Positions 8,718 to 22,984 of a stretch of 38,848 nucleotides of DNA are shown here, piece by piece. The translations under genes and the position numbers were made by a program. Numbering within the stretch: position 1 is the stretch's first letter; the number at the start of each line of letters is the position of its first letter. Origin of the DNA: Bacillus sp. FJAT-27245 (GTDB taxonomy: Bacteria; Bacillota; Bacilli; Bacillales; Cytobacillaceae); NCBI RefSeq assembly GCF_001273955.1, contig NZ_LIGI01000001.1, positions 2,067,703-2,106,550 on the forward strand, read 5' to 3'. The notes beneath the pieces were generated by a model. That model was not told where the DNA came from. It saw only the letters and a list, made by a program, of their open reading frames with translations, and ran no database searches.

Positions 8718-9269
8718 ATGAATGGACTAAAACAACTGGCGGTGACAGATGAAAGTATGCTGGATGAGAGAGAGCAGATAATTGATCAACTAATGCATGA
8801 ATATAGCGATGATATTCTGCATCTCGTATATACATATGTTAAAAATCGAACGACAGCGGAAGATTTAACTCAGGAGATTTTTATAAAGTGTTATGAAAAG
8901 TTAAATCAATTTAATCAACATTCCACAATAAAAACGTGGCTATATCGTATTGCGAGTAATCATTGCAAGGACTACTTACGAAGCTGGCATTATCGCAAAA
9001 TAATGCTTACCGATAAAATTTTGGATTATATACCTTCGAAATCAAAACAGGTTGAAGAGGAGATTATCGCGAATAGTGAAGAAAACATCTTAACAAATGC
9101 TGTCATGAATTTACCTCTAAAGTACAGGGAAGTCGTCTTCCTGCATTATTATGAAGAACTGTCCTTAGCCGAAATAAGCAAGATTACGACAGTAAATATA
9201 AATACAATAAAAACGAGATTAAAGCGTGCGAAAGAATTATTAAAAGATCAGATGATGGAGGAGGTTTAG
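8718..9269 (+). CDS. ECF-type RNA polymerase sigma factor
   Basis: 183 residues; ATG 8718 follows AGAGGGTGA. Region 2 spans about residues 28-95: 'HEYSDDILHLVYTYVKN', 'AEDLTQEIFIKCYEKL' and 'TWLYRIASNHCKDYLR'. Region 4 spans about 125-178: 'LPLKYREVVFLHYYEELSLAEIS' with HTH 'VNINTIKTRLKRAKELLK'. No region 1 or 3, as in ECF factors. An ECF promoter upstream indicates positive autoregulation. It heads an operon with a PadR-like winged-helix protein 3 nt downstream and a SEDS protein overlapping that gene, so its likely output is cell-wall or division-linked stress response. No B. subtilis counterpart can be named with confidence. Confidence 0.9.
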   Translation: MNGLKQLAVTDESMLDEREQIIDQLMHEYSDDILHLVYTYVKNRTTAEDLTQEIFIKCYEKLNQFNQHSTIKTWLYRIASNHCKDYLRSWHYRKIMLTDKILDYIPSKSKQVEEEIIANSEENILTNAVMNLPLKYREVVFLHYYEELSLAEISKITTVNINTIKTRLKRAKELLKDQMMEEV

Positions 9270-9272
9270 GAG

Positions 9273-9707
9273 ATGAATGATCCATTAACTAACCTGAAGA
9301 GTTCGATGAAAAAATCAATTTTCAAGGATTTTTCTTTTTCCAATGAAAGAAAAAATTCGGTGAAGGAATCCATTCGTATGAAACAATCTCAATCACAATT
9401 TGATTCTTGGAAGATAGAAACCATCATAGCAATATTAGAATCGGTTCAGCTTGAATCACAGGATGGCTACAATATTTCCACCCGACTTTTTCAAAAAAAT
9501 GAACTTACTTTCCAAAAAAATGAAGGGCAGCTTTATACACTTCTACATCTATTAGAAAACAAAGAAATTCTTACTTCAAAATGGATAAACGAAAAGAAAT
9601 ATTACTCTATAAATTCCAAAGGGAAAAAATACTTAGCTTCCTATAAACAAGCTAAATCAACACAGGAGTTTTCCCTTAAACACATACTAGAGGAGGCGTC
9701 ACTATGA
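9273..9707 (+). CDS. PadR-like winged-helix protein, probable sigma-factor modulator
   Basis: 144 residues, 3 nt behind the sigma gene; GGAGGTTTAGGAG supplies the ribosome site. Residues 1-35 ('LKSSMKKSIFKDFSFSNERK') resemble the short N-terminal segment seen in Bacillus anti-sigma factors, where it binds sigma. Residues about 48-125 form a PadR-type winged helix ('DGYNISTRLF', 'NEGQLYTLLHLLENKEILTSKW', 'KKYYSINSKGKKYL'). No membrane segment. Its stop overlaps the SEDS start (ATGA), so the two are coupled. PadR proteins are the usual partners of HAAS domains, and the next protein begins with one. Acting as a bridge between sigma and the HAAS-SEDS protein is an inference. Confidence 0.7.
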   Translation: MNDPLTNLKSSMKKSIFKDFSFSNERKNSVKESIRMKQSQSQFDSWKIETIIAILESVQLESQDGYNISTRLFQKNELTFQKNEGQLYTLLHLLENKEILTSKWINEKKYYSINSKGKKYLASYKQAKSTQEFSLKHILEEASL

Positions 9708-11023
9708 GTTCTTCCAAATTTGAAGAATTTTTAAGTAAGGTAATGTCCAAAGTGAAATCTAAGGAAGCCCACAATAAGATAAAAAAAGAGCTTGCTAATC
9801 ATCTGCAAGAGTTGAGTCAATCTTACAAAAAGAGAGGATTTTCCCAAGAGGATGCAGATGAAAAGGCCATTCAGGAAATGGGAAATCCATTTACCATTGG
9901 AGAGAATTTAAATCCCCTCCATAAGCCAAAAATGGATTGGGTTCTTATTGTATTATTTGTTCTTTTTGCTGGTATTAGTTTTCTCCCGTTAGTTGAGGGG
10001 ATTCCTCAACTTTCAATATCAGGCACATATATTATGGGGAGACAGGTTATTTGGTACTCCCTGACTGTTCTTGTACTCATAGGATTCCTTTTCTTTGATT
10101 ACCAGAAATTAAAGATTGGGTGGAAGTACTTTTATGCGATTGGCTTATTGATCCTTTTATACCTCCATCTATTTGGATATATGAAAAAGTGGGTTCTCCT
10201 TCCAGGTTTGACGGTGGATGGAACCATGTTGAGCTTATTTTTCTTTTTTCTAGCTTGGGCGGGTATTTTTAACAAAATGAATGAGTTTCATAGTTGGAAA
10301 AAGCAAGGTTTACTTTTTGTTTTATTTTGGACTCCCACCTTGCTCTACATGATGGTGCCAGACTTTATGGTTAGTATTATTTACTTCTTCTGTATTCTTG
10401 GGATGTTGGTTTTCGCTAGAATCCATAAGAAATTAGCTGTAAATCTTGCGCTAACAAATCTATTGGCTGGGATCATTTTCATTATTATGTTCTACATGAC
10501 CTCACGCCAAAGTTATTTATTTACTAGATTATCTGCTTTTATAAACCCAACTGCCGATCCAAATGGAGCAGGATATTTGTATATAGCGGTTAGGAATGTC
10601 CTTTCAGAAGCGGGATGGTTCGGTAACGGCCTTTACAACGATTTGAACTCACAATTGTTACCAGAAGCACATACGGATTTTGCTTTCCCCTTCCTCGTCT
10701 ATTCTCTTGGCTGGGCATTCGGAATCTTTCTATGTTTGATCATATTGATATTTATTTCAAGGATTTCAAAAAATGCGTTTAAAACAAAGGACCTCTATGG
10801 GAGATTAATCGTAATTGGTGGTGCTACATTATTTGCTGTTCCTACTACTTGGAGTATCTTGATGGGCTTTGGAGTCTTGCCTATAATGAGAGTTTCTCTA
10901 CCGTTTATTAGTTATGGAGGCAGTGGGATTGTCTTTTACGGAGCTGTTTTAGGACTCATTCTAAGTGTTTATCGAAGAAAAGATCTTGTAGAACCTATGA
11001 TTGAAGATGAAATTAAAAGTTAA
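9704..11023 (+). CDS. HAAS-domain/SEDS (FtsW/RodA/SpoVE-family) membrane protein
   Basis: 439 residues. Residues 5-70 are a HAAS-type helical domain ('ELANHLQELSQSYKKRGFSQ', 'EKAIQEMGNPFTIGENL'), the region often called permease prefix domain. About ten membrane segments follow from residue 80. SEDS hallmarks: 'GNGLYNDLNSQLLPEAHTDFAF' with D325, equivalent to the catalytic Asp of the polymerase FtsW/RodA, and 'LPFISYGGSG' near 405. SEDS proteins polymerise lipid II glycan chains with a partner class B PBP; none is encoded here. The usual 'EELG' after TDF is 'YSLGW', a departure from canonical FtsW/RodA. The operon context suggests envelope-stress-induced wall synthesis controlled through HAAS and PadR. 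Confidence 0.85.
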   Translation: MSSSKFEEFLSKVMSKVKSKEAHNKIKKELANHLQELSQSYKKRGFSQEDADEKAIQEMGNPFTIGENLNPLHKPKMDWVLIVLFVLFAGISFLPLVEGIPQLSISGTYIMGRQVIWYSLTVLVLIGFLFFDYQKLKIGWKYFYAIGLLILLYLHLFGYMKKWVLLPGLTVDGTMLSLFFFFLAWAGIFNKMNEFHSWKKQGLLFVLFWTPTLLYMMVPDFMVSIIYFFCILGMLVFARIHKKLAVNLALTNLLAGIIFIIMFYMTSRQSYLFTRLSAFINPTADPNGAGYLYIAVRNVLSEAGWFGNGLYNDLNSQLLPEAHTDFAFPFLVYSLGWAFGIFLCLIILIFISRISKNAFKTKDLYGRLIVIGGATLFAVPTTWSILMGFGVLPIMRVSLPFISYGGSGIVFYGAVLGLILSVYRRKDLVEPMIEDEIKS

Positions 11024-13433: not shown

Positions 13434-14507
13434 TTAGTTTTTATCGAGCCATTTCTCATTTCCTTTTACTCCTTGTTCTTTCATTAAAGTGATGGTGTCT
13501 TTCGCTTCCTGTTTCAATGGTGGATTGTTTACTGTTTTCACTGCGTTCTCAAGCGCGTCTGCCAAATCAACAATTGGATACAGCTTCATTGCTTCAACGA
13601 CTACCTTAATATCCGATTCTGTTGGGTTTGTTTGCAGCATTTTCTTTAATGTAGCGAAGTTCTGGTCAATCGCAAATACCTTCAGCTCCCGGTCAACCGA
13701 GTTGCTTTCAATGATTTTTTTCATGGCTTTTTCACTTTGTAAATCAGATACAGCAAAAAAAGCTGAATCTTTCAGATAGCCATCGTCACTCGTTTCAATT
13801 AGTTTAAAGCTTAAGTTCAGGAATTCTTCTTCTGCCTTTAAGTCATTTTTCGGGGTAGGTGTTTGCTTTTTCAAATACTTTGCTGTGGATTTTAGTGCGG
13901 CGGAAACTTTATCTTTTGGGGCAACATCAAGGTTGGAAAGGATTTCACTCGCAATGGTGTAGGCTTCTTTTGCATTCGCATTGGTTAGCTGCTTTAAGCT
14001 ATGGAAAGCGACAAGAGCATCATCCTTTGCGATTAATTCTTTTAAAAGAGGAACGTCCTTCCCCGAAAATTTCGCCCCAGCCACGATTTTTGTCTTTACC
14101 GTTTCGTTAATATCAGGACTTTTCAGAAGCTCTTTCAATTCTTCTGTAATTGGTTCCTTTTCATGTTTGTGAAGGTATAAGTCAACCATTGCCAGCCGGG
14201 TTTTATCTGCTTTCGTTTTGTCTTTAACGACTTTTAATAACTGTGAATCCTGGACTTTATTTTTCTTTTCAAAGAGGGCAGAAACGAAGGGCATTAATTT
14301 ATCATCCGTTTCTTCTGTTGAAGCAATCGCATCAATTTCTTCAATGAGCTGTTCTGTCTCTAACGTTTGTAACTGAGATTCAACGCTTTCCTCATTCCTT
14401 CCCAAGTATTTTTGAAGAGCGTCACTTTTAGCAGCTGCCACACCAGACGATATGACAAGCGACAACGATGCAAAAAGCAATCCAATGATCTTGATTTTCC
14501 GATCCAT
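13434..14507 (-). CDS. Secreted alpha-helical (HEAT-like repeat) protein
   Basis: 357 residues; ATG 14507 with AAGGAG 11 nt upstream. Residues 1-26 are a signal peptide ending AAA-KS. The rest is Leu/Lys/Asp/Glu-rich paired helices with HEAT/Armadillo-like repeats, for example 'DALVAFHSLKQLTNANAKEA', 'GYLKDSAFFAVSDLQSEKAM' and 'KVVVEAMKLYPIVDLADALE'. No catalytic motif is visible. Such repeat proteins serve as binding scaffolds. The next gene in the operon encodes a secreted cysteine-hydrolase-like protein, so a scaffold, inhibitor or chaperone role for that enzyme outside the membrane is plausible but unproven. Confidence 0.7.
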   Translation of the reverse strand: MDRKIKIIGLLFASLSLVISSGVAAAKSDALQKYLGRNEESVESQLQTLETEQLIEEIDAIASTEETDDKLMPFVSALFEKKNKVQDSQLLKVVKDKTKADKTRLAMVDLYLHKHEKEPITEELKELLKSPDINETVKTKIVAGAKFSGKDVPLLKELIAKDDALVAFHSLKQLTNANAKEAYTIASEILSNLDVAPKDKVSAALKSTAKYLKKQTPTPKNDLKAEEEFLNLSFKLIETSDDGYLKDSAFFAVSDLQSEKAMKKIIESNSVDRELKVFAIDQNFATLKKMLQTNPTESDIKVVVEAMKLYPIVDLADALENAVKTVNNPPLKQEAKDTITLMKEQGVKGNEKWLDKN

Positions 14508-14705
14508 CTTATCCTCACTCCTTTTGGAAAATTTGGGTTTGTCCCCATGTTCATATGAATATTGCGGTTAATGGAATAAATGCTTCGGAAAAGTTGGGAA
14601 AATCAATAGACGTCTTCCATTCAAAAACTCAATGACATAATTACGCGTTTCCCGGCATTAATGAGAAAAAAGGGAGTTGAGTATGTTGGAAGGGGAGGGG
14701 AAGTA

Positions 14706-14858
14706 ATGACAGCTTTTACGATTTTAGGAGTGTTTATATTGGGGTTAGCCATTCTAATAATCGGATTTATTGCTAAAAAGAGATGGATTAAACTGTTGGC
14801 CATCATTCCACTTGTTGTTTCAGGTTGGCAATTCATTCGTTTATTCTTAATGAGTTGA
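14706..14858 (+). CDS. Small two-helix membrane protein
   Basis: 50 residues from ATG 14706, set by GGAGGGGAAGTA; the upstream in-frame ATG at 14661 has no such site. It has two hydrophobic helices (residues about 3-21 and 27-46) around a basic turn (AKKRWIK). It lies between the divergent HEAT operon and the solitary TnpB-element right end. Family unknown. Confidence 0.6.
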   Translation: MTAFTILGVFILGLAILIIGFIAKKRWIKLLAIIPLVVSGWQFIRLFLMS

Positions 14859-14864
14859 TAAAAA

Positions 14865-14923
14865 TTAAGAGCTCTAACTCAAGCCCCACTGAAACGCATT
14901 ATTTCAGTGCCGGAAGTGTTGAC
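14865..14923 (+). mobile_element. Solitary right end of an IS605/TnpB-type element
   Basis: AACTCAAGCCCC-ACTGAAACGCATTATTTCAGTG...GTTGAC matches the right end of the tnpB element at 22939-22984 (AACTCAAGCCCCC..., CTCAGTG..., GGTTGAC) almost base for base, including the CACTGAA/TTCAGTG hairpin. No tnpB or left end lies beside it. It is probably a remnant or a non-autonomous end; if transcribed it could give a reRNA-like molecule with the flank starting AGTCCGGAATA as guide. Confidence 0.6.
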
Positions 14924-14992
14924 AGTCCGGAATATTAGTCTAAATTCTGAACAAATGAGTATTATTTTATTAGAGATAAGGAGGTGGGTTTG

Positions 14993-16102
14993 GTGAAACC
15001 AATTGGATTCTTAGGCGTTGGCCAGGCAGGTGGCAATATTGCTGAGGCGGCATCGGCCATGGGCTTTCCAACCGCACTTATCAATACGAACCAGCGTGAC
15101 GGGCTCGTCAATACGAGGGTTGAAAACAAGTATTTTGTTCCAGGGTATAACGGGGCCGGACAGGATCGGTCGATCGGTGCCCGGGCAGTACACGATCATT
15201 ACAGGGAGATCGTTGAATTTGTTGAAAAGTCATTCAAAAAAGTAAAGTTCCTGTTTGTGGCATTCTCCACTGACGGTGGGACCGGCTCGGGGATGAGCCC
15301 GCTCCTGATTGAAATCCTGCTGAACCAGCTGCCAAAGCTGAAGGTAGGAGCGATTGCTGTTGTGCCTGAACGGAATGTCCTTGCCGGCAACCGGATCAAT
15401 GCAGCGGAATGCCTTGAGGAATTGTCCAAGATTGAAGGGATTTCGTCCACCTTCCTGGTCGACAATGACCAGTTGCGCCGGACCAATCCCCAATCCAGCA
15501 AGCAACAAATTTATCGGGCTTCAAACCACAAGGTTGTGGAAGCAATCAACCATGTCCTGCAAATAACCTTGAAAAGCTCCCTTTACGGGAACTTTGATGA
15601 GACTGACTTGATGAATATCCTTAGCACACGAGGTGTGACTGTCATTTCCACAAGCACGGTGACAGATGCCAAAACGACTGCGGAAGTATCCCTTAAAATC
15701 CAGCAATCATGGGCGAATTCGGTTTTCTGCCCGGTTGAATCGCCTGGCGTCATACGTGCCGGATTGATTTATGAAGGACCTGAGAATGTGTCAAAGCTGA
15801 TTAACATCCCATCGATTTTCGAGAGGGTAGGGGAACCCCTTGAGCTGTACGAAGGAACCTATATTTCAGAAACAGACCCATCCATCACCACCATTCTCGC
15901 CGGACTGAGTTTCCCAACGCGCCGGCTTCAAGTGATGGAAGAAATGTTGACCAAAAACAGAGACCGGCTCCATGAGCTTGTCCAAAAGGAATACACACAA
16001 AGATATGAGTCCAAAATCAGCTGGGCATCCAATTTAAAAGCCAGAAACAACTACAGGCCAACACGGTCAGTCAATCAAAAACCGACAAAACCAAATAGCT
16101 AA
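14993..16102 (+). CDS. Non-canonical FtsZ/tubulin-like GTPase
   Basis: 369 residues from GTG 14993. The in-frame GTG at 14984 lies within the ribosome site AGGAGG (14979-14984), so the second GTG, 8 nt after it, is preferred. The tubulin/FtsZ active site is present: T1 loop 'GVGQAGGN' (about residues 8-15), glycine-rich T4 loop G95-GTGSG, and T7 catalytic loop N200-F-D202-E-T-D205, which fits NxDxxD. This means both the GTP-binding and the polymer-activated hydrolysis halves are intact. It differs from cell-division FtsZ: T4 is GGTGSG rather than GGGTGTG, and the C-terminal FtsA/ZipA-binding peptide is lacking, the tail being basic and Pro/Asn-rich. TubZ-like, 'tubulin-like' or FtsZl families are candidates. 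It is followed by its own terminator and then by an XpaC/VWA/TelA operon. Confidence 0.85.
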   Translation: MKPIGFLGVGQAGGNIAEAASAMGFPTALINTNQRDGLVNTRVENKYFVPGYNGAGQDRSIGARAVHDHYREIVEFVEKSFKKVKFLFVAFSTDGGTGSGMSPLLIEILLNQLPKLKVGAIAVVPERNVLAGNRINAAECLEELSKIEGISSTFLVDNDQLRRTNPQSSKQQIYRASNHKVVEAINHVLQITLKSSLYGNFDETDLMNILSTRGVTVISTSTVTDAKTTAEVSLKIQQSWANSVFCPVESPGVIRAGLIYEGPENVSKLINIPSIFERVGEPLELYEGTYISETDPSITTILAGLSFPTRRLQVMEEMLTKNRDRLHELVQKEYTQRYESKISWASNLKARNNYRPTRSVNQKPTKPNS

Positions 16103-16105
16103 ATT

Positions 16106-16136
16106 AGACACTGGGTTTTCCCAATGTCTTTTTTTT
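16106..16136 (+). terminator. Terminator of the tubulin-like gene
   Basis: Stem AGACACTGGG / CCCAATGTCT (one mismatch), loop TTTT, then eight T. It makes the tubulin-like gene a separate unit from the operon starting at 16554. Confidence 0.8.
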
Positions 16137-16553: not shown

Positions 16554-17288
16554 ATGTCGAAAATTTGGAAATTGATTACGCTACTATTCGGGATAACCCT
16601 TGCTAATGTGATTCTTCTTTCCCCTGGTTTTCTGGGGGTAAGGATTGTTGGCGGAAGTGCTCTTGAGACATCCTTTGGGGTGACTGTGCTGTTTGTCAGT
16701 CTCATTATTATTCTTTTCAGTATTTATGGGGTCCTGTTCAAAAAGATTCCAGCCGTACATTTGAGGGAGCTAAAAACAAATGAGGATTATGTAAGAGCCC
16801 TTCAATCTTATCAAAATATTAAAGCATTAAGGGAAGATATTGTGTTCGCTTTAGGACAGGAGCTTCGCTTGAAAAAGAAAAAAGGCGGGCTGCTGACCCT
16901 TCTGGATGAACGATTCGACAAAACCGAATTAAGTTATCAAAAGTTCGCCAATGTCGTAGCCGAAGTAGAAAAGCTCTTTTATTTGAATATCCGCAACATC
17001 CTCAACAAAGTCAGTACGTTCGATGAAACAGAGTACGAAAGCGTGAGTGGAAAAAATACGAGCCGTTTCTCTAAAGAAATTCTTCAGGAAAAAAGGGAAC
17101 TTTATAATGAATACCTTTCTTTTGTCAAAAATGCAGTGAATATTAACGAAGAGATTCTTTTGTATATCGATAAACTCGTCTTGGAAATTTCAAAGCTGAA
17201 CACCATTGATATTGACGACATTGACAATATGGCTGCAATGCAGGAAATGGATGCATTGATCAAACAAACAAAACACTATAAATACTAG
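16554..17288 (+). CDS. XpaC-like membrane protein (5-bromo-4-chloroindolyl phosphate hydrolysis family-like)
   Basis: 244 residues; ATG 16554 after GGGGGAGTGAAGG. Two membrane helices (about residues 5-25 and 40-62) are followed by a long cytoplasmic, coiled-coil-like region (70-240) rich in Lys, Glu and Leu. This fits the XpaC layout: N-terminal hairpin in the membrane plus a helical tail. XpaC and TelA genes are regularly neighbours in Firmicutes, and TelA is two genes downstream here. Biochemical function is unknown; the family name comes from a hydrolysis phenotype. It is the first gene of a three-gene operon (gaps 15 and 57 nt). Confidence 0.6.
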   Translation: MSKIWKLITLLFGITLANVILLSPGFLGVRIVGGSALETSFGVTVLFVSLIIILFSIYGVLFKKIPAVHLRELKTNEDYVRALQSYQNIKALREDIVFALGQELRLKKKKGGLLTLLDERFDKTELSYQKFANVVAEVEKLFYLNIRNILNKVSTFDETEYESVSGKNTSRFSKEILQEKRELYNEYLSFVKNAVNINEEILLYIDKLVLEISKLNTIDIDDIDNMAAMQEMDALIKQTKHYKY

Positions 17289-17303
17289 AAGGAGCACTGG
17301 CTG

Positions 17304-18989
17304 ATGAATAAAGGTAAATTTCTGATCGTCTCACTAATTGCTGTTGTTGTATTTTTTGGGGTTGTCTATGCTGGCATCTCGCTTACTTCGAATCTAGGAA
17401 AATCTAAAAAACAGATTACGGCTGAAAATGCCGAAGCACAGCTGGATAAAATGTATTCCAAGATCGATGTGGCAAAAGGAAAGCCTGCCAAAGGGCAGAT
17501 TGACTTAAATCCAGCTGATCTGGCTGAAGAACTGCCTGATATCAATAAGTTTCCTGTAACCGTCGAAAATTCAACCGAATCATTTGTTGAAATCTTCTCG
17601 TCGCCTGAAAAAACGGGCAAAGGGAATGATTCATGGCTAAACGAAGTAGGAAAAGACTACAACGCCGCAAAGTTCCAAGTGGATGGAAAGGTCGTCAGTG
17701 TGAAGATCCGAAGCATTGCCTCTGGTACAGCAACAGACTATATCAAATCAGGAAAATATGTTCCCGACGCCTTTACCCCTTCTAATGAGTTTTGGGGAGA
17801 GATGGTGAAAGATAGCGGGGTAACAGCTGAACTGATTTCAAAAAGGATGGTCGGCAACGTGCCTGGCCTTGTCATCAAGAAAAAGAAGCATGATCAGTTA
17901 GTTGACAAATATGGCTCGGTAAATGTGAAAACCGTTACGGATGCGATGGCGAAAAATGAATTTGCCATGGGTTATACCGATCCGTTCGCAAGTTCGACAG
18001 GCCTTAACCTTCTTTTGACCGCTTTAAACACCTTTGACAAATCCAACCTTCTGGGGGATAAAGCAGTACAGGGCTTTGAGCAATTCCAATCGAATGTGCC
18101 ATTCACAGCATCTACGACATTGCAGATGAGGGAAGCGGCCAAATCGGGTGCGTTGGATGGATTCGTGCTTGAGTATCAAACATTCATTAATTCACCTGAT
18201 TTGAAAGATTCATATATATTCACTCCGTTTGGCGTCCGCCATGACAGCCCATTGTATGCCATTGGCAATATCTCTGATGAGAAAAAGCAAATCATTCAAC
18301 AATTTGCCCAATTCGCCCAGGAGAAAAAGTATCAAGAACTCGGCAAGAAAAATGGATTTAACGGCCTTGAATCTTACGCATCGGAAATGCAAACGGTTGA
18401 CGGCGCCACTCTTTCGGCTGCTCAAAAGCTATGGAAAGAAAAGAAAAACGCCAATAAGCCGATTGTAGCAGTGTTTGTTGCAGATGTTTCTGGAAGCATG
18501 AATGGAGAACCAATGAACCGAATGAAAGAAAGCTTGCTTAAAGGCCAGAAATATCTTGGCAAAAACAACAGTATCGGATTGGTTACTTACTCTGATGACG
18601 TGACGATCAATTTGCCGATTGCTCCATTCGATACGAACCAGCAATCATACTTTGTCGGAGCTGTCGAAGGCCTGCAGGCAAACGGGGGAACCGCGACGTA
18701 TGATGGGATTGTCGTCGCGATGAAATTGCTGAAGGATGAAATGAAGAAGAACCCTGATGTGACCCCTCTCATTTTCGTATTGAGCGACGGGGAAACGAAT
18801 CGGGGACACTCATTGGACGAAATCCGCGGATTAATTCAGGCTTATAAGGTTCCAATCTATACAATCGGATATAACGCTAACCTCAAGGCTCTTCAGACCA
18901 TTTCATCGATCAATGAAGCAGCGAGTATCAATGCTGATTCAGATGACGTCGTCTATAAGATTAAAAACCTGTTCAACGTACAATTGTAA
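17304..18989 (+). CDS. Surface substrate-binding-like protein with C-terminal von Willebrand A domain
   Basis: 561 residues; ATG 17304 after GAAGGAG. Residues 8-30 are an N-terminal membrane anchor or uncleaved signal. Residues about 75-370 look like an extracellular solute-binding fold ('VENSTESFVEIFSSPEKTG', 'VKIRSIASGTATDYIKSG', 'FAMGYTDPFASSTGLNLLLT', 'FGVRHDSPLYAIG'). Residues about 388-558 are a VWA domain with a full metal site: D394-V-S396-G-S398, T463/T465 in 'GGTATYDG', and D495 in 'LSDGETNRG'. VWA domains bind partners through a bound divalent ion. Lying between XpaC-like and TelA genes, it probably forms the outside, ligand-sensing part of an envelope complex. A TerY-type role in metal or toxic-anion stress is possible. 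Confidence 0.85.
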   Translation: MNKGKFLIVSLIAVVVFFGVVYAGISLTSNLGKSKKQITAENAEAQLDKMYSKIDVAKGKPAKGQIDLNPADLAEELPDINKFPVTVENSTESFVEIFSSPEKTGKGNDSWLNEVGKDYNAAKFQVDGKVVSVKIRSIASGTATDYIKSGKYVPDAFTPSNEFWGEMVKDSGVTAELISKRMVGNVPGLVIKKKKHDQLVDKYGSVNVKTVTDAMAKNEFAMGYTDPFASSTGLNLLLTALNTFDKSNLLGDKAVQGFEQFQSNVPFTASTTLQMREAAKSGALDGFVLEYQTFINSPDLKDSYIFTPFGVRHDSPLYAIGNISDEKKQIIQQFAQFAQEKKYQELGKKNGFNGLESYASEMQTVDGATLSAAQKLWKEKKNANKPIVAVFVADVSGSMNGEPMNRMKESLLKGQKYLGKNNSIGLVTYSDDVTINLPIAPFDTNQQSYFVGAVEGLQANGGTATYDGIVVAMKLLKDEMKKNPDVTPLIFVLSDGETNRGHSLDEIRGLIQAYKVPIYTIGYNANLKALQTISSINEAASINADSDDVVYKIKNLFNVQL

Positions 18990-19046
18990 TTTTCACGCCA
19001 ATTAAAAGCATGAGCCTGTAAAATACACTAAAACGGGGGATAATCT

Positions 19047-20195
19047 ATGTCGTTTTCAATGACTGTTGCAAGTCCTGAAGAAGTAAAGGCCCTTATCGAA
19101 GAACAAGTCAAACCTGTTCCAGAGGAAATTTCAGAACTGCAAAAGGCAGCCAATCAGAATGTTTCCACGATTATGGGATTGGATGTCGAATCACTTGATC
19201 AGCGAAATGAAGTATTGAAAAGCATTGAAAGTTTCGGGTTAAACACGATGAAGGCTTCGTCCAACAAGAATTCACTTCTTCAAGTGTCGGTCGGGAACCT
19301 GGCGAAACAGGGCGATGAAGGCAGCCGGGTCGCAAAAGGGCTGTCTGAACTTCAAACCCAACTGAAGGACCTCGATCCAAGTGTGATCGATTTTGCAAAA
19401 ACGGGCTTTCTTGGAAAACTGTTCAACCCACTTCGGGCCTACTTCCAAAAGTACGAAAAAGCGGACAGCGTCATTTCGGATATCGTCACAAGCCTTGAAA
19501 AAGGGAAAGTGACCTTGAAAAATGACAATACAACGCTTGAAATCGAACAGCAGGGACTTCGGGATTTGACGAAAATCCTTCGGAAGGAAATTGAACTGGG
19601 AACTTTGATGGATGAAGCGATCGAAGCTCAAATCGAACAGGCTAAAACAAGAGGTGAAGACCCGGATAAAATTCAATTCATCACCGAAGAATTGTTATTT
19701 CCGCTTCGTCAGCGAGTGATGGATTTGCAGCAAATGCTCACAGTTAACCAGCAAGGCATTATTGCATATGAAGTAGTCATCCGGAACAACAGGGAGTTGA
19801 TCCGTGGGGTTGAACGTGCAAAAACCGTGACCATTTCTGCATTGAAAATTGCTGTTACCGTAGCAAGTGCTTTGTACAATCAGAAGATTGTCTTAAAAAA
19901 GATCGAAGCCCTTAACGCAACAACGAACGATTTGATTGCAGGAACTAGCAAAATGCTGAAAGTGCAAGGTGTGGAAATTCAAAAGCAGGCAATGGAATCA
20001 AGCGTTTCTGTTGAGACATTGAAAGTCGCGTTTGCTGATGTAATCGAGGCGATGGACTCAATCAGTACGTACAAACAGCAAGCATTGCCGAAAATGCGTG
20101 AAACCATCAACCAATTCAAAGAGTTGGCTGAAACAGGCGAAAAACAGATTCAGCGTCTCGAAAAAGGCAATGAAGTAAACCTCCTAAGTAATTAA
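19047..20195 (+). CDS. telA: TelA-family (toxic anion resistance) protein
   Basis: 382 residues; ATG 19047 after ACGGGGGA. Long helical soluble protein typical of TelA: 'NQNVSTIMGLDVESLDQRNE', 'GFLGKLFNPLRAYFQKYEKA', 'LTVNQQGIIAYEVVIRNNRE', 'RGVERAKTVTISALKIAVTVA' and 'ATNDLIAGTSKMLKVQGVEI'. TelA homologues (B. subtilis YceH) are linked to tellurite and some antimicrobial tolerance and to the Ter stress system; the mechanism is unknown. Here it ends the XpaC/VWA operon. No terminator follows until 20602, so the transcript may run into the M20 remnant. Confidence 0.9.
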   Translation: MSFSMTVASPEEVKALIEEQVKPVPEEISELQKAANQNVSTIMGLDVESLDQRNEVLKSIESFGLNTMKASSNKNSLLQVSVGNLAKQGDEGSRVAKGLSELQTQLKDLDPSVIDFAKTGFLGKLFNPLRAYFQKYEKADSVISDIVTSLEKGKVTLKNDNTTLEIEQQGLRDLTKILRKEIELGTLMDEAIEAQIEQAKTRGEDPDKIQFITEELLFPLRQRVMDLQQMLTVNQQGIIAYEVVIRNNRELIRGVERAKTVTISALKIAVTVASALYNQKIVLKKIEALNATTNDLIAGTSKMLKVQGVEIQKQAMESSVSVETLKVAFADVIEAMDSISTYKQQALPKMRETINQFKELAETGEKQIQRLEKGNEVNLLSN

Positions 20196-21130: not shown

Positions 21131-22984
21131 CATATTTGGAAGAAGACTCCATCTGATTTGTGTTACGGGGGCAGTCCGACAATTCAGGTGGAGATGAATT
21201 GCCGTCAGCCGCGGGCTGAAGCTGGTCCAAAAATTTTAGGCTAAAAGAGGAACAAACATTCGCTTTTCGTTCAACCAACTGCTATAATTATATATAGGGA
21301 AATATTCCTATTTTGGAAGAAAAGGAGGTGAATAAAATGGCTAAAAAGAAACCCGTCAAGGTATTACGTAAACGAAAGAAAACCGAAACAATTCAACGGT
21401 TAACTCAAAAACAGAATATCGGACGAACCAGTCTTACTGCCAAGGAATTCCGTCTCCTTCGACGCATGACCCATAGTTCAAAAGCATTGCGAAATGTTGG
21501 ATTATATACAATAAAACAATGTTACTTAAACCAAAACAGGATGGCGACGGTAAAAGAAGTAGACGCTGCCATGCAGGCTGATGTGAATTATTGGGGTATT
21601 CAATCGAACTCCGTTCAGGCTATTCGAAGGACTTTGTATGCGGAAGTAAAAAGCTTTTTCGAGGCGTTTAAAAAGTGGAAGGAAAACCCTGAGAAATTCA
21701 CTGGCCGCCCTAAATTCCCGAACTACTCCCGTTCCACAGAAAAGCGTGTAATCGAAATCTATCAAGTCCCTAAGGTGGATAAAAACGGGTATTGGGTGAT
21801 TCCGATGAACAATGAATTCAGAAAACGTTACGGTTCGATCAAGATTCGTATGCCAAAAAACTTGTTACACAAGAAAATCTCCTACATTGAAATTGTGCCC
21901 AAGCAAAAAGGTCGGTTCTTTGAGGTGCATTACACGTATGAAGTGCAAATCGCTCAAATGAAAAGACAACCAACGACCACTGTACGTGCTTTGAGTTGCG
22001 ATTTAGGTGTAGACCGATTGGTAAGTTGTGCAACAAATCATGGCGAAACTTTTCTAATAGATGGCAAGGAGCTAAAGTCCATCAACCAATATTTCAACAA
22101 AAAGATAAGCAATCTGCAGCAAAAAAATATCGGAAACGGGATTTCAAAACGGGTTGTGACGAACCAAATCGCGGAACTCTGGAACAAACGGGAACATCAA
22201 ATCAGCGGATACTTCTCACAAACTGTCGGCCTGTTATTCAAAAAGGTGAAAGAATTGAATATCGATACGATTGTCGTCGGGTATAATGCCGGTTGGAAAC
22301 AGGAATGTGATATGGGGAAAAGAAACAACCAGACGTTTGTACAAATTCCATTCAAAAAGTTGATTTCTGCCATCGAAAACAAATGTATGAAAGAGGGCAT
22401 CCGGTTCAAGAAGCAGGAAGAAAGCTATACGTCCAAAGCCAGCTTCTTGGATAAAGATAGGATTCCTGTTTGGTCGGAAAATGATAAATCCTCCTACACA
22501 TTCAGTGGCAGACGCCTTACTCGTGGACTGTATCGTTCCAAAGCTGGCCACTGTATCCATGCAGACATCAATGGTGCGCTGAATACGTTGAGGAAATCGG
22601 AAGTTGCAGAATTTCACGAAACTATCAAAGTGAAAACTCCAACTGTGTTAAACGTACGAAAACGTAAAGCTGTTGCTTAGTGCATGGCTTAGTGGGTGTG
22701 TCAGCCATCCAGGGTATCGGGCGCATTAGTGCCGGGGCTTGTAGTACATAGTTCGCAAGGCTATGACTTCTCCGTATCCATTCGGAGAACCTTAACTCAC
22801 AGCAGGGAGGGTGCAAGTGGGAAAACAATCGTCCATTGCCAGTACCGACCTAAAAATTACTTGGGGTGTCACCGAAACGTGACATGAATTCTAGAGCGTC
22901 ACTCTGTCTAGTGGTAGACGAAAAGACCTAGAGTTCAAACTCAAGCCCCCACTGAAACGCATTATCTCAGTGGGGGTGGTTGAC
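21131..22984 (+). mobile_element. IS605/IS1341-type tnpB element inserted in the TRIC gene
   Basis: Ends are deduced by rejoining the host frame: ...ATT TAT | element | GCT TTA TGG... The 1854-bp insertion has no target duplication and abuts TTTAT (21126-21130), as expected for IS200/IS605-type insertion next to a target-adjacent motif. The right end has a strong hairpin CCCCCACTGA / TCAGTGGGGG (22945-22973) and ends GGTTGAC. Only tnpB is present; there is no tnpA, so mobility would need a transposase in trans. Confidence 0.8.
21337..22680 (+). CDS. tnpB: TnpB, RNA-guided endonuclease of an IS1341-type element
   Basis: 447 residues from ATG 21337, set by AAGGAGGTGA; the upstream in-frame TTG is rejected. 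It has an N-terminal Lys-rich and wedge-like region (1-210). RuvC-I Asp is D222 in 'LSCDLGVDRLVSCATN' and RuvC-III Asp is D410 in 'HADINGALNTLRK'. RuvC-II reads 'DTIVVGYNAGWKQE': the usual 'IVxE' glutamate position is Gly315, with Glu323 eight residues on. The zinc-finger cysteines normally between RuvC-II and III are absent ('YTSKASFLDKD', one Cys only). TnpB uses a right-end-derived RNA to cut DNA beside a TAM and helps keep the element. Whether this subgroup still cuts is open. Confidence 0.9.
   Translation: MAKKKPVKVLRKRKKTETIQRLTQKQNIGRTSLTAKEFRLLRRMTHSSKALRNVGLYTIKQCYLNQNRMATVKEVDAAMQADVNYWGIQSNSVQAIRRTLYAEVKSFFEAFKKWKENPEKFTGRPKFPNYSRSTEKRVIEIYQVPKVDKNGYWVIPMNNEFRKRYGSIKIRMPKNLLHKKISYIEIVPKQKGRFFEVHYTYEVQIAQMKRQPTTTVRALSCDLGVDRLVSCATNHGETFLIDGKELKSINQYFNKKISNLQQKNIGNGISKRVVTNQIAELWNKREHQISGYFSQTVGLLFKKVKELNIDTIVVGYNAGWKQECDMGKRNNQTFVQIPFKKLISAIENKCMKEGIRFKKQEESYTSKASFLDKDRIPVWSENDKSSYTFSGRRLTRGLYRSKAGHCIHADINGALNTLRKSEVAEFHETIKVKTPTVLNVRKRKAVA

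Follow-up and report, generated by a model that had tools for sequence, protein, structure and literature searches.

Apart from FtsZ, cytomotive tubulins in bacteria are known chiefly from plasmids and phages, and the locus described here raises the question of what such a protein does on a chromosome, away from the division genes. The window, that is, the whole stretch of 38,848 nucleotides of Bacillus sp. FJAT-27245 under analysis, carries at 14993..16102 on the plus strand a gene for a tubulin-like GTPase of 369 aa. The gene lies on a contig of 4.58 Mb, and the records of two orthologous loci (L055 and L075) are titled chromosome. In the accessible text of two earlier papers, the non-FtsZ cytomotive tubulins are described as mainly plasmid- or phage-borne (PMC7762940, PMC9871819), the 2023 survey treating TubZ as plasmidic (PMC9871819). 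No publication on the chromosomal family was found among the literature matches listed.

The coding sequence starts with GTG, an alternative in-frame TTG being located at 14990, and is preceded by a ribosome binding site, GGAGG, recognised from the sequence at 14980..14984. The first-pass annotation had described a complete set of GTPase loops, and these were confirmed at the same positions: T1 (GVGQAGGN) at residues 8-15, T4 ((D)GGTGSG) at residues 94/95-100 and T7 (NFDETD) at residues 200-205. The GTPase site is complete throughout the family, as the catalytic Asp pair and the T1, T4 and T7 loops were present in all 50 orthologues (the window copy plus 49 loci). Residues G8, G10, G13, G95, G96, G98 and G100 were invariant over this set, and likewise D157, N158, N200, D202 and D205, while T97 was replaced by Ser in a single member. 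The first position of T4 was Asp, not Gly, in 50/50 family members versus 2 of the 26 comparison rows. Toward the C-terminus, W344 and L348 of a W344xxxLK motif were kept in all 50 members, followed by a variable tail. The protein matched the tubulin/FtsZ model PF00091 with 55.7 bits (cut-off 33), far above chance, and the Tubulin_2 model PF13809 with 35.1 bits (cut-off 27). Among named relatives, Neobacillus piezotolerans is the closest in this gene (96% identity).

The protein shares superfamily and GTPase loops with FtsZ, and within the genus it is 21-25% identical to FtsZ across the GTPase part. However, the FtsZ_C domain, the C-terminal peptide and the linkage to the dcw genes, all three characteristic of FtsZ, are missing. 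The score against the FtsZ equivalog TIGR00065 was 61.4, compared with a cut-off of 295.2, and FtsZ_C (PF12327) gave no match in the tubulin-like protein while matching both FtsZs of the same genome. The window copy ends with KPTKPNS, unlike the ends of FtsZ1 and FtsZ2, and the ftsA gene is located about 444 kb away (C1:1638075 versus C1:2082695 for the tubulin-like gene). The genome carries two genuine FtsZs besides the tubulin-like gene. One of them is in the ftsA-ftsZ arrangement, followed by genes that are presumably spoIIGA and sigE. The second, at G000:C1:1852239 (L111:4701-5981), is a complete FtsZ of 426 aa with FtsZ_C and the C-terminal peptide, being 77% identical to FtsZ1 and located far from ftsA; at the threshold of the FtsZ comparison, two FtsZ-type matches were detected in 5 of the 8 genomes of the window's genus. 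The earlier view of the product as a tubulin-family protein separate from both FtsZs and outside the division cluster was borne out, and profiles and the tree described below ruled out its reading as an FtsZ paralogue.

When the protein was compared with the profiles of FtsZ and TubZ, as had been proposed in the first-pass annotation, it grouped with TubZ, the tubulin that otherwise powers type III partition of plasmids and phages. Alignment by hhalign with a profile of seven TubZ gave E 3.1e-69 over 339 columns (residues 3-348), compared with E 6.4e-4 over 203 columns for the FtsZs of the genome, the FtsZ side consisting of two rows. Among solved chains, the TubZ chains 4xcq and 3v3t were at the top of the profile search, covering residues 5-320, while in the single-sequence search 3zid, which we take to be an archaeal tubulin-like chain, was slightly ahead of TubZ. 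In a tree of 34 rows the family formed one clade (100/100) among the TubZ proteins of phage G, Pontibacillus/G458 and plasmids, with FtsZ outside. Support for the deeper order was weak (91/76, 94/89), and three branches were flagged as long. The TubZ proteins of Priestia megaterium pBM400 and Bacillus phage G (gene 138) are, like the protein here, tubulin-family GTPases of about 370 aa with the GTPase loops, and TubZ of type III partition is alignable over most of the length with 27-32% identity. By tblastn, 2 matches were obtained in 50,697 phage records, both in phage G (31.9% identity across 98% of the query), and 27 matches in 72,556 plasmid records, the best ones in Bacillus and Priestia. 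The TubZ_C models PF21493 and PF22453 did not match the protein, and the proteins of pBM400, phage G, Pontibacillus, G458 and G040 were likewise unmatched. Similarity to phage PhuZ is partial: phrog_4733 gave a weak profile match of 40.8 bits, and a phrog of no assigned function scored 44.9.

The first-pass annotation had proposed that the product is the filament of an envelope-remodelling machine, similar to the VWA-linked FtsZl1 family, and works with the downstream operon. The genes for XpaC-like, VWA/solute-binding and TelA proteins (16554..20195, plus strand) do adjoin the tubulin-like gene in the window, and PF13809 is exceeded as described above. For the XpaC-like ORF no family was matched, and its name is that given in the first-pass annotation; the gene at 17304-18989 encodes a protein that fuses a solute-binding domain (PF13531) with a VWA domain, and is followed by TelA. 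The constancy of this linkage, on which the proposal depended, was surveyed in 49 contig loci (27 titled Neobacillus and most others Bacillus sp., with some flanks cut by contig ends), and the homologues mostly lacked such neighbours. The XpaC/VWA/TelA genes adjoin the tubulin-like gene in 3/49 loci, downstream in L049 and L050 and upstream in L051, and in each of the three the identity to the window copy is 93% or more; L048 (96%) carries none of these genes within its 7-kb flanks, nor does any locus below 90% identity show the linkage. Furthermore, 451 bp and a terminator-like hairpin lie between the tubulin-like gene and the downstream unit. Given the linkage in 3 of the 49 loci and this terminator, the envelope-operon reading fails, and the three genes are regarded as neighbours only, not as part of the system.

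As for the kinship with FtsZl1 (Tubulin_2), PMC2875224 describes, in its accessible part, divergent tubulin-like proteins encoded beside a VWA gene, as in the window, most of them with a coiled coil and an extra C-terminal domain and without confidently identified T6-H7 elements. Set against this description, the protein here lacks the long C-terminal part, its T7 is intact, and its VWA linkage is unconserved; with 369 aa it aligns with TubZ over residues 3-348. The PF13809 cut-off was also exceeded by the TubZ-like proteins of phage G, Pontibacillus and G458, so that this model is no marker of FtsZl1. Length, intact T7 and the sharing of PF13809 with TubZ-like proteins ruled out FtsZl1 identity, and the envelope machine as a whole is hardly credible.

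The tubulin-like gene appears to be a transcription unit of its own, as judged from predicted signals at both ends. Directly downstream of its stop codon, an intrinsic-terminator-like hairpin was found at 16106..16136 on the plus strand (9 pairs with one internal mismatch, a UUUU loop and then a U-tract; −11.6 kcal/mol, z −4.0), which a simple terminator scan had not listed. Upstream, a putative promoter-like element, GTCTAA-N13-GAGTAT, is located at 14938..14962 on the same strand. Within one mismatch it was present in 34 of 49 upstream regions (the window plus 48, L081 being left out for lack of sequence) versus 0.1% of mononucleotide shuffles, the motif having been derived from the same related sequences in which it was counted. 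Among the remaining 15, three (L070, L071 and L083) carry it with the spacer lengthened by one base, and the region is different in 12. A longer form of the element was found at the tubulin-like gene in 8/8 genomes, with one further copy elsewhere in one of them. The element resembles what we take to be a SigB promoter with two changes, but this assignment was dropped as no regulon was found.

No conserved neighbour of any kind was detected when the ORFs of at least 60 aa in the flanks of the 49 loci were clustered, the widest flanking family not overlapping the tubulin-like gene being an ABC ATPase in 9 of the 49 loci. Among the 903 locus pairs with less than 80% tubulin identity, none shared two flanking ORF families and 8 shared one. 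For 42 of 58 pairs with at least 88% identity (8 further pairs, with L081, were left out), the homologous block extends less than 200 bp past the gene at both ends. Among the matches listed, the sequences flanking the copy at L075 are also dispersed over sister genomes, and the unstable context is therefore not peculiar to the tubulin-like gene. A mobile single-gene cassette is not claimed, since the shared blocks are short but the neighbours at L075 are scattered too.

The TubZ genes of pBM400, phage G, two Bacillus plasmids and three other genome stretches have a small ORF directly upstream, and a TubR model was built from these seven ORFs, which matched the solved TUBR 4asn at E 5.5e-39 and another TubR at 7.5e-5. 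With this model a TubR-like ORF of the nearest kind was found near the tubulin gene in 38 of 44 viral loci and in 8 of 11 plasmid, phage or element loci (7 of these 8 being the model's own rows), in contrast to 0/50 family loci (L081 without upstream sequence). The reach of the model is limited to near-kind TubR, because it misses L106 and L107, both plasmid-type TubZ genes with a small ORF upstream, and a more divergent TubR elsewhere in the genome might escape it. With the same model, genome-wide searches gave weak scattered matches in 3 of 8 genomes of the window's genus (E to 0.1) and in 8 of 61 genomes of the sister genus (E to 0.01), the best overall reaching 23 bits. A TubY model made from two sequences matched in 3 of 53 searched genomes, out of 69 in the two genera: the match in G001 adjoins a separate, plasmid-type TubZ, that in G108 is a MerR-like ORF of 393 aa with no tubulin within 3.7 kb, and that in G134 spans 33 residues. 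Direct repeats of the tubC kind were not found in 14400-15000 by a scan that is weak, since at pBM400 and phage G, too, it detected nothing beyond two-copy repeats. No family was matched by PADLOC. Two distant relatives were noted in passing. On an 898-kb replicon of Pontibacillus (L101), a TubZ-like gene adjoins a gene for single-stranded DNA-binding protein, and no TubR-like ORF accompanies it. On a 2.3 Mb contig of G458, a distant TubZ-like gene (26%; L204:2933-3997, minus strand), also without a TubR-like ORF, is flanked by what we take to be spoVK-like and hflX-like genes. Among 19 genomes of the family of G458, 1 carries this 26% homologue, and nothing is based on the sporulation link that its neighbours might suggest.

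TubZ filaments undergo treadmilling or dynamic instability, and their flexible C-terminal tail is described as a partner-binding site with a role in disassembly (PMC5322520, as far as its accessible text goes). The first-pass annotation had noted the lack of a C-terminal interaction peptide; this holds for the FtsZ peptide, but the family has a tip of its own, KLxKY[QKH][KR], conserved at the C-terminus of 38 of the 50 orthologues. Within the window's genus the tip is altered in 8/8 genomes, whereas a loose pattern detected it in 19 of the 22 genomes examined outside that genus. Of 46 TubR-bearing relatives, 41 fitted a loose pattern of the TubZ tip, compared with 3 of 50 family tips, and an LxKY-like tip, recalling that of the family, occurs in some TubZ members and in 6 of 24 non-FtsZ relatives. 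The likeness between the two tips, judged by eye, may thus be called partial. The idea that the tail was lost together with TubR was dropped, since full ends show the conserved tip in 38/50 and its alteration in the window's genus.

Full-length orthologues (at least 557 bits) were found in 75 of 193 genomes of the window's family, including 8/8 of its genus, 58/61 of the sister genus g18, 4/5 of genus g7 and one in each of five other genera. In the order sample 8 of 397 genomes matched at E 1e-15, including two 73% copies in another family and one 26% copy. In the class sample two of 398 genomes matched, one being the window genome itself and the other, G611, a member of a third family with a copy of 58% identity (L230:5115-6236, minus strand). 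This copy lies on a contig of 3.99 Mb, the surrounding 11.5 kb contain no TubR-like ORF, and its protein ends with KLAKYKQ, similar to the family tip. For 30 genomes chosen among those bearing the gene, the mean divergence was 0.29 for the tubulin and 0.30 for FtsA, and the two sets of distances were correlated (Mantel r 0.57, none of 2000 permutations being as high; 0.69 without G397 and G440). For G397 and G440 the tubulin distances fall below the FtsA expectation (about 0.2 versus 0.4), which suggests transfer, and in genus g7 the tubulins have diverged further than FtsA (0.12 versus 0.02, G019-G021); these deviations indicate that inheritance or rate is uneven. The tubulin-like gene is under purifying selection, with dN/dS of 0.022-0.082 compared with 0.017-0.064 for FtsA. 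Seven pairs were chosen for this estimate, and dS was saturated in some of them.

We favour, with a probability of roughly 0.55, the reading of the product as a stand-alone chromosomal filament of the TubZ lineage that has been recruited by the host, its polymerisation, partner and function being predictions from sequence. The protein would polymerise with GTP into dynamic polar filaments, while its C-terminal tail would grip a host-encoded cargo or adaptor instead of TubR-tubC. With such a filament and a tail gripping host cargo, the resulting task would be intracellular positioning for the cell itself, and not plasmid segregation or septation. More tentatively, a DNA-moving tubulin of plasmids or phages may have been captured by chromosomes, lost its DNA adaptor and acquired a new tail partner, so becoming a third tubulin domesticated by the host to position cellular cargo, for which the nucleoid, a membrane domain or a forespore component are candidates. 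If this were true, the cell would possess a dedicated cytomotive tubulin with a housekeeping job in addition to FtsZ.

Other roles have to be weighed against this assignment. The protein could act in DNA partition in trans, or interfere with incoming TubZ-dependent plasmids and phages as a chromosomal incompatibility or decoy factor: phage and plasmid TubZ are its nearest outside relatives, an LxKY-like tip is common to some TubR-bearing TubZ, and a plasmid-type TubZ with TubY does enter the group, as in G001. The identity to those TubZ is, however, about 30% only, neither an adjoining near-kind TubR nor upstream direct repeats were found in the loci and region searched, and PADLOC gave no match. 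Defence genes are usually patchy in distribution whereas the tubulin-like gene is widely conserved. We consider such a role rather unlikely.

A GTP-binding regulator of the divisome, that is, a third FtsZ-like protein modulating the rings of FtsZ1 or FtsZ2, would fit the presence of two FtsZs and the divergence equal to that of FtsA across the 30 genomes, but it is quite improbable for a relative of TubZ, not FtsZ, without the FtsZ_C domain, FtsZ C-terminal peptide or dcw linkage. The variable surroundings, with 0/903 pairs below 80% identity sharing two flanking ORF families and with the short homologous blocks of 42/58 close pairs, could also be those of a passing plasmid or prophage remnant without host function. 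The low dN/dS, the invariant active site and the presence in 58/61 genomes of the sister genus make this highly doubtful, and, with the flanks at L075 likewise scattered in sister genomes among the matches listed, an unstable context is no peculiarity of the tubulin-like gene.

The family differs from TubZ of TubZRC systems in that it is chromosomal, is without an adjoining TubR of the near kind, has Asp first in T4 and occupies nearly all genomes of two genera. A TubR-less chromosomal TubZ as such is already known: according to the accessible text of PMC7762940, some Clostridia have a chromosomal TubZ with TubY but without TubR, suggested not to act in DNA segregation. Compared with that system by description, near-kind TubY was unmatched here in 50/53 genomes. 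A parallel in the actin superfamily is the chromosome-encoded ParM characterised in 2025 (PMC12270681): here, too, a cytomotive filament of the plasmid type is encoded on chromosomes, and a role other than plasmid segregation has been proposed for it. Unlike the tubulin-like family, ParM is described with ParR partners. A slowly evolving, nearly genus-wide chromosomal TubZ without adjoining TubR offers a testable case of the conversion of a selfish-element motor into a host filament, and a handle on what TubZ-type filaments can move without a plasmid.

Two other features of the window were noted. At 8718-11023, a sigma-factor-like gene, a small ORF and a gene for an FtsW/RodA-family protein with a permease-prefix domain are arranged in a row, and at 21313-22680 a gene for an RNA-guided endonuclease of the TnpB family is located.
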